Assembly (NCBI RefSeq): GCF_030408575.1 | Contig: NZ_CP047047.1 | Coordinates: 682,001 to 746,000 of the forward strand | Source of the DNA: Corynebacterium auris | Lineage (GTDB): Bacteria > Actinomycetota > Actinomycetes > Mycobacteriales > Mycobacteriaceae | DNA length: 64,000 nucleotides | Direction: 5' to 3' | Shown: positions 7,111 to 64,000 of the stretch, one piece after another | How positions within the stretch are numbered: the stretch's first letter is position 1 | How the letters are laid out: the number at the start of each line of letters is the position of its first letter | The notes under the pieces: model-generated | The model's database searches: none | What the model was told of the DNA's origin: nothing | The model's input: the letters and a program-made list of their open reading frames with translations, nothing else | Program-made: the position numbers and the translations under genes

Positions 7111-7967
7111 CGGTCCGAGTGCCGGATGCGCTCGGCGATGCGCTCGCGCACGGTGCGCGCCTGGCGCTTGATACCGCGGCCGACGCGGCGGGCGGCGGCG
7201 ACGGTGGCGTCGGCAAGCCTGGCGAACTCGTCGCCCTCGGCCTCGGAGGATTCCGTGACCTCGTAGTCGTCGTAGCCCGCCTCACCCGCGGCGAATGCGG
7301 CGGCGACCTCGGAGACAGTCTTAGTGGTGGGCTTAGTGGTGGGTGCGGGCGAGTCGATCTTGGGCTCCGGGCGCCCGTCAACGGCGTAGCCCACGACGTG
7401 GATATCGGGTCCGGCGGGTGAGACCGGAACGCCGATCCAGTTCTCCTCGGCCACACGGGCGAGGTCGGCCGGGTCGAAGGGCAAAGAAATCCCGCCGACC
7501 TGCTCGGCCTCCTCGCCCGCCCAGAAGGGAAGCTCGAAGGGGTCGGGAAGGCCGACATCCTCGAGGACGGCGTTGCGGGTCGCGGCGAAGGCGCGGCGCA
7601 CCTGCGTGCCGGCGAAGTGGGCGAAGCCGGCGAAGTCGCTGTCGGTGCCCGCGGCGAAAATATAGGTGTCGGAGGAGGGCAGGCTCGCGCGCAGCTGCGG
7701 CAGCGCCTGTGAGAGGACGGAGACGTCCTCGACGAAGGTGCGCACCACCGCCACGCCGGGGTAACCCGCGATGTAGAACTCCGCCGGGCCCGGGGTGGAG
7801 GAGCGGTTGAGGGGGAACTCTCCGATCGGCGTGATGGGCCAGGAGGGGTTGAGCTGGGCGAGCAGCTTGCGCCCGAAGCCGCGGTCCGCCCGGGGCTCGC
7901 CGCCTAGGACGGCGGCGGGGTCGGCGGCGGTGACGAACCAGACGGTGACAACGGCGGGGTAGTTCAT
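7107..7967 (-). CDS. DUF6928-like hypothetical protein
   Basis: A 286-residue cytoplasmic protein. The start MNYPAVVTVWFVTAADPAAV and the following GEFPLNRSS and EFYIAGYPGVAVVRTF segments resemble actinobacterial DUF6928 proteins. The middle contains FELPFWAGE and the C terminus is a Lys/Arg-rich helical tail (GRGIKRQARTVRERIAERIR), preceded by a Thr/Pro-rich linker. ATG 7967 follows sepH by 10 bases, so both are probably in one transcript, a hint of a linked role that is not proven. Its stop codon shares CTAG with the convergent methyltransferase gene. Confidence 0.6.
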   Translation of the reverse strand: MNYPAVVTVWFVTAADPAAVLGGEPRADRGFGRKLLAQLNPSWPITPIGEFPLNRSSTPGPAEFYIAGYPGVAVVRTFVEDVSVLSQALPQLRASLPSSDTYIFAAGTDSDFAGFAHFAGTQVRRAFAATRNAVLEDVGLPDPFELPFWAGEEAEQVGGISLPFDPADLARVAEENWIGVPVSPAGPDIHVVGYAVDGRPEPKIDSPAPTTKPTTKTVSEVAAAFAAGEAGYDDYEVTESSEAEGDEFARLADATVAAARRVGRGIKRQARTVRERIAERIRHSDR

Positions 7968-49786: not shown

Positions 49787-49999
49787 CGAGGTAGTCTAAG
49801 CCGCTGGGTTCGTGGTGGGCGCCCGGGTGGCGTCGTCAAGCATGCTGGTGGGATTAGGTAAACGCGCGCGGGGGCGGTAATATGTTGCGGGTTGTCCGGC
49901 TTAGGCCGGGCCCTGACCATTTTCGCACCCAACTCGGGCACGATCCGCCCTGTGGCAGGAACCGACCCGAAGTTCAATCCTGAGGGAGACGAATAAGAG

Positions 50000-60819: not shown

Positions 60820-60892
60820 GGGGCTATAGCTCAGTTGGTAGAGCGTCGCGTTCGCAATGCGAAGGTCAGGGGTTCGATTCCCCTTAGCTCCA
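60820..60892 (+). tRNA. tRNA-Ala(CGC)
   Basis: A full cloverleaf: acceptor GGGGCTA/TAGCTCC, D-arm GCTC-AGTTGGTA-GAGC, anticodon stem TCGCG/TGCGA with loop TTCGCAA (anticodon CGC), T-arm GGGG-TTCGATT-CCCC and discriminator A. A short T-rich terminator follows. The 5' flank carries a repeat of CCGGGGCACAGGCA. An 11-base copy of its T-arm is found again at 62634-62644. Confidence 0.94.
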
Positions 60893-61484: not shown

Positions 61485-61613
61485 ATGTCCACTTTGATTA
61501 ACGCGTTGTCGGACGACATCTCGACTGGCTCCTCCAGGCTCGTGTCCGAGGTCCGAGCCCATCACCGCTCGCTGCTCTTGCCCCCCCCGGCGGGCTGCTG
61601 CTGCGGCGGCTAA
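61485..61613 (+). CDS. Small Cys/Pro-terminal peptide (42 aa), possible leader or RiPP precursor
   Basis: ATG 61485 follows GAAGGTGAAG, a good ribosome binding site, and opens a 42-residue frame. It has a Ser/Asp-rich front (MSTLINALSDDISTGSSRL), a basic middle (VSEVRAHHRS) and an end LLLPPPAGCCCGG. The frame lies within an AT-richer island after tRNA-Ala. PPP is a known ribosome-slowing motif, and three successive TGC Cys codons follow. Candidate roles: a translational attenuator, a modified peptide, or a metal-binding peptide. No RiPP-modifying enzyme is visible in the window. I do not recognise the family. Confidence 0.6.
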   Translation: MSTLINALSDDISTGSSRLVSEVRAHHRSLLLPPPAGCCCGG

Positions 61614-61625
61614 ATCGCGGGCGTA

Positions 61626-61669
61626 GCTGCGGGATATCTGGGTTCCCCAAAAACCAGGCCTCCCGCAGC
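61626..61669 (+). promoter_or_regulatory. Hairpin after the peptide gene, with competing pairing
   Basis: GCTGCGGGA (61626-61634) pairs with TCCCGCAGC (61661-61669), with an inner CTGG/CCAG stem. The second arm can also pair with GCTGCGG inside the last Cys codon and Gly codons (61600-61606). The two foldings are mutually exclusive. A ribosome stalled on the Cys codons would block the upstream copy. Confidence 0.6.
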
Positions 61670-61718: not shown

Positions 61719-62339
61719 TTGATTCTTGTAGCTATCGTGGTAGCCGAGGTTTTGTTCTGGATTCTACTTCTCGCTGGACTTTTGACTCGGTATGCATTGC
61801 GGGCCCCCCGGATCGGGGCCGGGTTGTTAATTGCCACTCCCGTCGTTGATCTTGCACTATTAGTTCTTACCTACGTCGACTTGAGTTCCGGAAAGTCGTC
61901 GAATTTCGCTCACGGTTTATCCGCTATATATATCGGATATTCCATCACACTTGGGCCGACAATCATTCGAACCCTAGACAAGCGGTTCGCTCGCCGTTTC
62001 GGAGAATCGGATCCGAAGGGGTCTGATCCTGACACAAACCCCTACGACGAAGCAGTGTCAAACTGGAAGCGTGCGTGTATGGGTTCGCTCATCAGCGTTA
62101 TCTTGCTTTGTGCGGGAATTCTAGTCACCGGATTGCAAGGCGCGTTTTGGTTAATCTATTGGGTTTTCGTTGCTGTATTTATCGTGGTTCTGTGGTGGTT
62201 TATCGGCCCGTACCGGGAGAAAAGGAAAACCACAAAGAATAGTTCTGGGACAGCTAATTCAGCTCTTCCGAAAGACTCAGAGGGACCCGACTCCGGAGAG
62301 ACTGCTAAGGAGCGGAGGAGTACTGGCTTGCCTAAATGA
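61719..62339 (+). CDS. YmcC-like integral membrane protein
   Basis: A 206-residue membrane protein with TTG start after TTTGGAGG. About five hydrophobic segments lie at residues 2-23, 34-52, 64-80, 119-138 and 143-163. The first half (LLAGLLTRYALRAPRIGAGL, ATPVVDLALLVLTYVDLSSG, HGLSAIYIGYSITLGPTIIR) resembles the YmcC-type family of Bacillus and actinobacteria. The C-terminal tail is polar and charged (KTTKNSSGTANSALPKDSEG). It lies 105 bases after the Cys-rich peptide and is probably co-transcribed. Function unknown; base composition is poorer in GC than the core genome. Confidence 0.72.
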   Translation: MILVAIVVAEVLFWILLLAGLLTRYALRAPRIGAGLLIATPVVDLALLVLTYVDLSSGKSSNFAHGLSAIYIGYSITLGPTIIRTLDKRFARRFGESDPKGSDPDTNPYDEAVSNWKRACMGSLISVILLCAGILVTGLQGAFWLIYWVFVAVFIVVLWWFIGPYREKRKTTKNSSGTANSALPKDSEGPDSGETAKERRSTGLPK

Positions 62340-62663
62340 CTCCACGATGGGGAAATTGCGAAATGGTGAGGTCAGAAACAGGGCACGGCGATGGTGCCTC
62401 GATCCCGCGCTTGTTACTGTTGCCCGGCGGCATGACGCAGCCGTCGCGCCACGCTGCTTCACTTTCACTGCTTGCCAGGTCGATAATTTCGCGACGGATA
62501 CTCCTCCTCTCGTTCAAGACGTGGGATGTGGTGGGGGATTTAATTTCCGAGCTGTTGGGAAGCTTGAGGTCCTGGATCGGTGTTGATCCAGACGAGGCGG
62601 GTATGCATACGGCTACGCCCTTGACATCACGCAGGGTTCGATTCGTACGGGCTGGCGCTGAAA
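62340..62663. other. Decayed DNA with an 11-base tRNA-Ala T-arm copy
   Basis: No intact gene. Short open frames exist on both strands without recognisable motifs. GGGTTCGATTC at 62634-62644 equals the T-arm of the tRNA-Ala at 60870-60880, and lies where the AT-richer island gives way to high-GC sequence. This looks like the right end of an inserted segment. Confidence 0.45.
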
Positions 62664-62841
62664 ACATTCCGCCTTCTGTGCCGCGCGTAACGACGCCCTC
62701 GCCAACGTCCTCATCATCGCCGCCGGTCTGGCCACCTTCGTGGGGCCCGCAGTGTGGTTCGACATCATCGTCGGGCTCGTCATCGCGGTCGTGAACCCCA
62801 GCGCCGTCAAGGAGGCCTTCGAGGGGACCGACAGCGACTAG
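62664..62841 (+). pseudogene. 3' remnant of a cation diffusion facilitator gene
   Basis: The frame reads FCAARNDALANVLIIAAGLA, then TFVGPAVWFDIIVGLVIAVV and ends NPSAVKEAFEGTDSD with TAG at 62839-62841. RNDALANV plus the two helices match transmembrane segments 5-6 of CDF-type metal exporters, but no start or N-terminal part remains upstream. It ends 9 bases before the convergent ThDP gene's stop. Confidence 0.7.
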
Positions 62842-62849
62842 CCGGTCCG

Positions 62850-64000
62850 CTAGCTCGGCGAGGCGTGCTCCTGGTCCACGAGCACGTGAAGGAGGGCCAC
62901 CCGGCCGTCGGCGAGCGCGTCGAAGGCGCGTCCGACCGCGGCGTCGACCTCGTCGGCGCCTGAGAGGGTTTCGGCCCACGCCCCGAGGGAGCGCGCCCAC
63001 GCCGCGAAGTCGGGGTTGTCGAGCTGGGTGCCGGAGACGCGCCCCGGGTACAGCTTTTCCTGGTGCTGGCGGATCGTGCCGTACTCGGCGTTATCCACAA
63101 GCACCACGAGCATCGGCGCGTTGTAGCGCACTGCGGTGACGATCTCCTGGCCGTTCATGAGCAGTTCCCCGTCGCCGCTGAACGCCACGATGGTGCGCTC
63201 GGGGAGCGCGAGCTTCGCCGCAAGCGCCGCGGGCACGCTGTAGCCCATCGCCCCGAGCCGCGTGGCCAGCATCGACGGGTAGGTCCGGGTGGGGAAGAAG
63301 CGCTGCGGCCAGGCGCAGTGGTTGCCGGCCCCGAAGGTGCACAGGGCGTTATCGGGCAGTCGCTTCACGACGGCTCGCATCACGTCATTGAAATCCACAG
63401 CGCCGTCGGCGACGTCGTCGAAGGTGGTGGGGGTGGAAAACTGCTCGTGGTGGGCGCGCGCGCTGTTAAACCACTCCGCGGTGTCCGGCGCGCCCGCCAG
63501 GTCGATGCGGTCCAGGGTGGTGGCAAAGACGCTGGGGTCAGCGAGGATGTGGTGGGTGACGCAGCTCGCGTGGCCCTTCAGCTCGGCGTCGGCGCTGACG
63601 ACGATGGTGCAGGCGTCGGGGTCCTGGCGCAGGGTGAAGTTGTCGGTCGGCTTGTCGCTGAGCTTCGCGCCGAGGCAGACGACGACGTCGGCGGTATCCA
63701 AAAGCTCCGCGGCGTGGTCGCTTCTGGCGGTGCCGAGCCAGCCGGCGTTGGCGGGGGAGTCGAAGTGGATGCGGTCCGAGGCGCGGAACTCGCCGAGGAC
63801 GGGAATCTGGTGCTTTTCGGCGAAGTGGCGAACCGCCTCGCACGCGTCCTGCGTCCATCCTTGCGCGCCAGCGACGACGAGGGGACGCTCGGCGCCGCGC
63901 AGCGCCCCGGCCACCACGTCGATGTCCTTCGGCGAGACAGCGCCGTGGGCGGGGGCGATCGGGTGGGAAAGCTGGCCCTCAAAGGGCAGCTCGATGAGGT
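62850..64000 (-). CDS. ThDP-dependent enzyme of the acetolactate-synthase type, N-terminus outside window
   Basis: The visible C-terminal 380 or so residues of a thiamine-diphosphate enzyme. The middle domain is ALRGAERPLVVAGAQGWTQD. The C-terminal ThDP/Mg domain has FGAGNHCAWPQRFFP, GAMGYSVPAALAAKLALPER and GDGELLMNGQEIVTAVRYNA ending in VDN, the GDG...N cofactor motif, then EYGTIRQHQEKLYPGRVSGT. It resembles acetolactate synthase large subunits and benzoylformate decarboxylases, but no partner genes are visible, so the reaction is not assigned. Confidence 0.82.
   Translation of the reverse strand, partial: LIELPFEGQLSHPIAPAHGAVSPKDIDVVAGALRGAERPLVVAGAQGWTQDACEAVRHFAEKHQIPVLGEFRASDRIHFDSPANAGWLGTARSDHAAELLDTADVVVCLGAKLSDKPTDNFTLRQDPDACTIVVSADAELKGHASCVTHHILADPSVFATTLDRIDLAGAPDTAEWFNSARAHHEQFSTPTTFDDVADGAVDFNDVMRAVVKRLPDNALCTFGAGNHCAWPQRFFPTRTYPSMLATRLGAMGYSVPAALAAKLALPERTIVAFSGDGELLMNGQEIVTAVRYNAPMLVVLVDNAEYGTIRQHQEKLYPGRVSGTQLDNPDFAAWARSLGAWAETLSGADEVDAAVGRAFDALADGRVALLHVLVDQEHASPS

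Follow-up and report, generated by a model that had tools for sequence, protein, structure and literature searches.

With a probability of about 0.95, the Corynebacterium auris locus described here, which lies within the analysed DNA stretch of 64,000 nucleotides (the window), is what remains of a plantazolicin-type gene cluster (TOMM/LAP class, linear azole-containing peptide) that was probably acquired horizontally. This reading draws on homologous precursors in other genomes, the same gene order in two of them (G245 and G253), synteny broken by a 5.8-kb gap, and the absence of YcaO and SagB matches from the genome. The cysteine-tailed peptide encoded at the locus is most likely not a cysteine-sensing switch. 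The features of the locus are collected in Table 1.

Table 1 Features of the decayed cluster and its flank in the window
Feature	Position	Strand	Basis
Decayed plantazolicin-family precursor ORF, 42 codons	61485..61613	+	homology to G245 and G253
Leader part in ancestral frame, 25 codons	61485..61559	+	18/25 identical to G245 (72%)
Core part, read out of frame as HHRSLLLPPPAG, frame regained for CCCGG	61560..61610	+	alignment to G245, frame reading
Remnant of ancestral core start, A-R-C-S-C, in shifted frame	61567..61581	+	frame 1 reads SEPITARCSC
Hairpin after precursor gene	61626..61669	+	predicted fold; 2x2 internal loop here, 15 stacked pairs in G245
Intact membrane protein, 206 aa, TTG start, cluster-associated	61719..62339	+	six helices in predicted model
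PznL-like methyltransferase pseudogene	62323..62686	+	alignment to G245; 3' part deleted
Cation-efflux gene 3' remnant, 5' part gone, deletion junction with short GCGCG overlap	62687..62841	+	blastn junction, letters
TPP-enzyme gene, flanking, syntenic with G245	62850..63998	-	family match, alignment

Precursor homologues in other genomes

The predicted 42-residue ORF with a ribosome-binding site is present at its position: it begins with ATG, is preceded by AGAAGGTGAAGTAA and encodes MSTLINALSDDISTGSSRLVSEVRAHHRSLLLPPPAGCCCGG. A search with this peptide over 242 genomes of the genus gave matches in 153 of them at E ≤ 10, nearly all weak; ORFs were tabulated for 17 of the matched loci, with those on the minus strand left unreversed, and L019, L034 and L020 were read closely (L020 looked unrelated). 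Two intact relatives hold up among the matches listed. The first, in G245, matches at 60% over residues 1-42 (E 9.5e-5), while the second, in G253, matches at 52% over the same residues with an E-value of only 0.05, and its homology was accepted because of the end-to-end alignment and synteny. The G245 peptide (MSSLINALPAEISTGSSKIVSEVQAFEPTAARCTCTTLPCCCCCGG) and the GTG-start G253 peptide (STLINKLPPAVSTDSSKIVSEVQAFEPTAARCSCTTIPCCCCCGG) are both followed by a relative of the window membrane gene and both terminate in FEPTAARC(T/S)CTT(L/I)PCCCCCGG. The former is identical to the NCBI record "plantazolicin family TOMM peptide" of Corynebacterium timonense, and we infer that G245 represents this species.

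The G253 precursor matches the family model TIGR04218 (2e-24, 85.2 bits, cut-off 45), and G245 and G253 are the 2 of the 242 genus genomes in which this model is found above its cut-off. The sole further likely precursor among them (34.9 bits, below the cut-off) is a divergent one in G211 (L058 1480-1605; also L065), ending FEPTAARCSCSSSTCCVLCVKK. The window peptide itself matched no NCBIfam model at E ≤ 1, TIGR04218 included, which is expected of a decayed precursor yet is no positive proof. The window precursor is nevertheless homologous to TIGR04218 members at a syntenic place, indicating plantazolicin-type LAP/TOMM ancestry. Of the RiPP precursor that had been named as a fallback, the ancestry was therefore upheld (homologues, TIGR04218, the named NCBI record); a working precursor was not, no YcaO or SagB match being found in the window genome. 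A database precursor of 44 aa with an intact core (P0004) has VRA and CSC in common with the window; it and a relative of the membrane protein (P0008, 82%) are both on 6704-base contigs and are probably on one contig, a nearer intact relative of the window locus.

Intact clusters in relatives

The gene order in G253 is precursor, membrane protein, methyltransferase, a 235-aa protein (presumably pznJ, by position only), C protein, YcaO, SagB and a CAAX-type protease. G245 has relatives of every one of these genes, the enzymes and the 235-aa protein being 47-85% identical, and Rothia aerolata has the same genes, which from the methyltransferase onward are 94-99% identical to those of G253. The cluster enzymes of the intact relatives match TIGR03604, TIGR03605 and TIGR03882, with 1 YcaO match each in G245 and G253, and the intact G253 methyltransferase matches the solved plantazolicin enzymes BpumL (2.9e-16) and BamL (7.8e-11). 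A fourth, more distant cluster is that of G211, in which YcaO lies approx. 3 kb downstream of the precursor, accompanied by relatives of the methyltransferase, C protein and SagB. The check proposed for a RiPP, i.e. a modification enzyme near a conserved peptide, gave YcaO/SagB clusters in the G245 and G253 relatives, in support of RiPP ancestry. The ORF product of these relatives would be a precursor with a leader to which the C protein binds; going by the named families, the Arg-Cys-(Thr/Ser)-Cys-Thr-Thr... core would be converted to azoles by YcaO and SagB, then cleaved and N-methylated.

According to PMC4603692, plantazolicin clusters are reported in Corynebacterium, Brevibacterium and Clavibacter, and the precursors are approx. 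45 aa long with Arg-first cores. With the pzn cluster of Bacillus velezensis FZB42 the intact relatives share the precursor family model, YcaO, SagB, C protein, CAAX-type protease and PznL-like methyltransferase, the sequence comparison being limited to the solved methyltransferases. Unlike FZB42 pzn, for which PMC4517070 gives the order pznFKGHIAJC DBEL, the corynebacterial operon has the membrane gene directly after the precursor. Among the literature matches listed, no title or abstract start concerned this locus or a corynebacterial plantazolicin relic.

Decay of the window copy

The window and G245 are collinear on both sides of the locus, with 80-82% DNA identity in long blocks. The blastn junction reveals that the window lacks approximately 5.8 kb present in G245: the 3' part of the methyltransferase, the next five genes and the 5' part of the cation-efflux gene (intact at L048:5285-5893, a PF01545 match). 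Since part of a neighbouring chromosomal gene is gone, this is a deletion in the window lineage. All that is left of a PznL-type N-methyltransferase at the locus is a truncated fragment with CTG where G245 aligns ATG and a frameshift near 62539. The precursor differs from that of G245 by 8 nt in length just before the core and by 4 nt before the Cys tail, and between these differences the window core is in the wrong frame; an in-frame core starting with Arg and heterocyclisable residues is absent, and the A-R-C-S-C remnant is legible in another frame.

In the window genome (G000, the one genome of this species covered) there were 0 YcaO matches and no TIGR03605 match (SagB-type dehydrogenase) at E ≤ 1, and therefore maturation looks impossible here. 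The C protein (TIGR03882) is absent from the window locus; two matches elsewhere in this genome (32.9 and 16.1 bits) are below the cut-off of 36.9, and this model also has matches in 11 of 14 control genomes. In comparison with the C. timonense cluster, the locus has the same chromosomal place and the same order (precursor, hairpin, membrane gene, methyltransferase), but it shows no in-frame core, its methyltransferase is broken, and the J, C, D, B and protease genes are gone. With the core frame-shifted, the methyltransferase frameshifted and cut, and approx. 5.8 kb deleted, no product would be made.

It could be argued that the frame-shifted ORF still yields an unmodified peptide with a function of its own, be it metal binding, antimicrobial action or regulation, given its open frame, its ribosome-binding site and partly conserved leader codons. 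We consider this highly improbable: an open frame over the 51-nt tail is no evidence either way, since it is also kept in 92% of 20,000 base shuffles, the window peptide matched nothing but its own copy when used as query in a protein search, and the leader changes are near the neutral ratio (4 synonymous / 6 non-synonymous on the window branch, P 0.21), counts that neither show nor exclude selection. That the precursor is in fact intact and appears broken through misassembly of the poly-C run, as the eight-C run within the core might suggest, is very unlikely; the 8-nt difference lies upstream of this run, and the loss of maturation genes and of parts of two others is no base-calling error.

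Hairpin downstream of the precursor gene

The original prediction described a translational attenuator in which two copies of GCTGCGG compete for one downstream arm. Both copies exist (61600-61606 and 61626-61632), as does the 3' arm TCCCGCAGC at 61661-61669; the spacing of 20 bases was wrong, the second copy starting 13 nt beyond the stop. Both heptamers recur on the + strand of the window (29 occurrences of GCTGCGG, 14 of CCGCAGC), and since Cys-Gly codons spell GCTGCGG, a match of the ORF to the hairpin carries little weight. The 131-nt window stretch was predicted to fold with a z of -2.17 (3 of 200 shuffles as stable). A strong hairpin with its main stem 4-12 nt after the precursor stop was found in all 5 loci folded, with z values of -2.17 (window), -3.89 (G245), -3.94 (G253), -4.78 (Rothia) and -5.38 (G211); these loci are few, and those of G253 and Rothia are close to each other. 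The window hairpin has the weakest z of the five and fewer stem pairs than that of G245. The hairpin sequences differ among lineages; in G211 the stem resembles a terminator and carries a T run. The G253 (L049 ~7831-7885) and R. aerolata (L053 ~7902-7960) hairpins have the stem in common, and their loops are nearly reverse complements, as if the loop had been flipped.

An attenuator, in which a ribosome on the Cys codons (or stalled on Pro) would pick the hairpin controlling the membrane-protein gene, finds some support in the Cys codons adjoining the stop, in the hairpin 12 nt downstream and in a stretch of the final ORF codons that is exactly complementary to the 3' arm (8 nt in the window, 7 nt in G245). 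Leader ORFs with a Cys run ahead of cys operons are described in Actinobacteria (PMC1262725), a subject that Canestrari (2020) reportedly also treats. Such ORFs likewise combine a short reading frame with Cys codons adjoining the stop, but those of Mycobacterium and relatives, according to PMC1262725, precede cys/cbs genes and are without conserved terminator hairpins, whereas the window ORF is a precursor relic, homologous to precursors that lead maturation clusters in relatives. No sulfur-assimilation gene was found downstream, the membrane gene matching no sulfur-gene family in Pfam or NCBIfam. Complementarity of at least 6 nt between Cys codons and 3' arm is missing in G253, R. aerolata and G211 (for the latter two the ORF piece was extended 3 nt beyond the stop), so that a conserved mutually exclusive pairing is not seen across the five loci: the hairpin is present in 5 of 5, the complementarity in 2 of 5. 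Stalling on PPP fails likewise, PPP being found in 0 of 4 other precursors (G245, G253, Rothia, G211) and arising in the window where the core is out of frame. By eye no T-run follows the stem (ATAACTTCTATC), and the terminator scan was blank at this hairpin, though its loop limit of 3-8 nt could not cover the 12-nt loop. We therefore give the attenuator very little credence; the pattern, as judged from sequence comparison, fits a precursor-boundary hairpin and not an attenuator conserved among the lineages.

Hairpins located after precursor genes can act as leaky terminators. In the intact clusters the hairpin, placed after the precursor and before the maturation genes, would most likely serve as such a leaky terminator or as an mRNA stabiliser, giving more precursor than enzyme message; a narrow literature query found nothing on hairpins after precursor genes.

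The retained membrane-protein gene

The window membrane gene is 82% identical to the G245 cluster gene and 70% to that of G253. Its description as "YmcC-like" was not substantiated, since the protein scored below cut-off with all Pfam and NCBIfam models. PADLOC gave nothing for this protein, a Foldseek search of the structural model (mean pLDDT 68.7, pTM 0.48) against the PDB gave no match at E ≤ 0.001, and the PDB sequence-profile search only matches with E of 0.37 and above. Closer homologues are carried by G242, G082 and G264, with no further cluster gene in their 3.5-kb loci. Two Brevibacterium loci (L054 and L055) have homologues at 46% and 50%, with no precursor-like ORF detected by the motif filter. 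No leader ORF was seen by eye upstream of the homologues in 17 loci, 5 minus-strand ones being left out.

Selection was assessed from changes on the window branch polarised by G253, the membrane gene being counted over its first 185 codons and the sites unresolved by G253 being left out (15 in the membrane gene, 18 in the methyltransferase, 0 in the leader). The counts, synonymous / non-synonymous, were 9/7 for the membrane gene (P 0.009 against neutral, small counts) and 4/17 for the methyltransferase fragment (P 0.79); these two differ by Fisher P 0.036, uncorrected for several tests. On the G245 branch they were 11/14 (P 0.035) for the membrane gene, 8/7 (P 0.014) for the methyltransferase and 0/1 for the leader. 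Comparison of 8/7 with 4/17 thus indicates that the methyltransferase was constrained in the G245 line, not in the window line. Another alignment gave membrane counts of 9/6 (window branch) and 11/14 (G245 branch). On the window branch, as far as such small counts allow, the membrane gene looks selected and the methyltransferase fragment looks neutral.

The membrane gene dN/dS between the window and G245 was 0.44 (0.26-0.73), above those of flanking moeA (0.07) and the TPP gene (0.16); it was 0.14 for window-G253 and 0.09 for G245-G253 (dS saturated in both), and 0.26 for G253-Rothia. These values and the counts point to a modest constraint; a portion of the branch is older than the deletion. 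Differences between window and G245 by codon position were even in the methyltransferase fragment (17/18/21), near even in the membrane gene (26/14/29), and 26/13/141 and 48/31/132 in moeA and the TPP gene, respectively. The dS against G245 is lower in the remnant (61719-62690; membrane gene 0.22) than in the flanks (moeA 0.60, TPP 0.67), perhaps because the cluster was exchanged later or differs in codon bias.

Being intact and seemingly selected on the window branch, the membrane gene may have been retained, perhaps as a self-protection gene, to which its linkage to the cluster and its retention point indirectly. A bolder version, which is possible although rather doubtful, is that it remained under selection after loss of the antibiotic, as orphan self-protection against neighbours still making a plantazolicin-type antibiotic, and that its family is an unrecognised actinobacterial plantazolicin immunity protein. 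There is nearly an even chance that the protein has a stand-alone, general role and was caught up in the cluster, its retention then being silent on self-protection; this alternative bears on the retained gene alone and does not conflict with the relic reading. Homologues are found in 41 of the 242 genus genomes and 6 of 24 genomes of other genera, and TIGR04218 exceeds its cut-off in no genus genome besides G245 and G253; a general membrane role is therefore at least as likely as immunity. Against it speaks the position of the G245, G253 and Rothia relatives, each immediately downstream of the precursor within a full cluster.

Origin of the cluster

The GC content of the cluster is 0.51 in G245 and G253, as against 0.67 for the window. 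G020 and G021 present an empty site: the 361-aa, efflux and TPP genes are immediate neighbours, and the 4.6 kb retrieved contain neither a cluster nor a tRNA. Judged by GC content and the empty site, the data are consistent with an acquisition in the line common to the window and G245, followed by loss in the window line. In both the window (60820-60892) and G245, the 361-aa gene and the cluster have a tRNA gene between them, which ARAGORN identifies in G245 as Ala (cgc); the retrieved G020 and G021 loci are without it. Between tRNA and precursor, G245 has a gene that looks transposase-like by eye (L048 13129-14271), absent from the window. Elsewhere in the window, Rfam matches comprise a c-di-AMP riboswitch (1136-1275, - strand) and an L31-Corynebacteriaceae leader (49932-49987, + strand).

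Significance

The window locus is a decayed member of a known RiPP class, that is, ordinary biology in which the retained membrane gene is mildly interesting; its product may protect against related azole peptides or have a general membrane role. A false regulatory candidate is hereby removed, and it is seen that the relic of a RiPP precursor can resemble a leader-peptide attenuator. The locus also presents a natural deletion, in which the working precursor and the enzymes are gone while one membrane gene persists, and this points to a possible plantazolicin-immunity gene in Actinobacteria.
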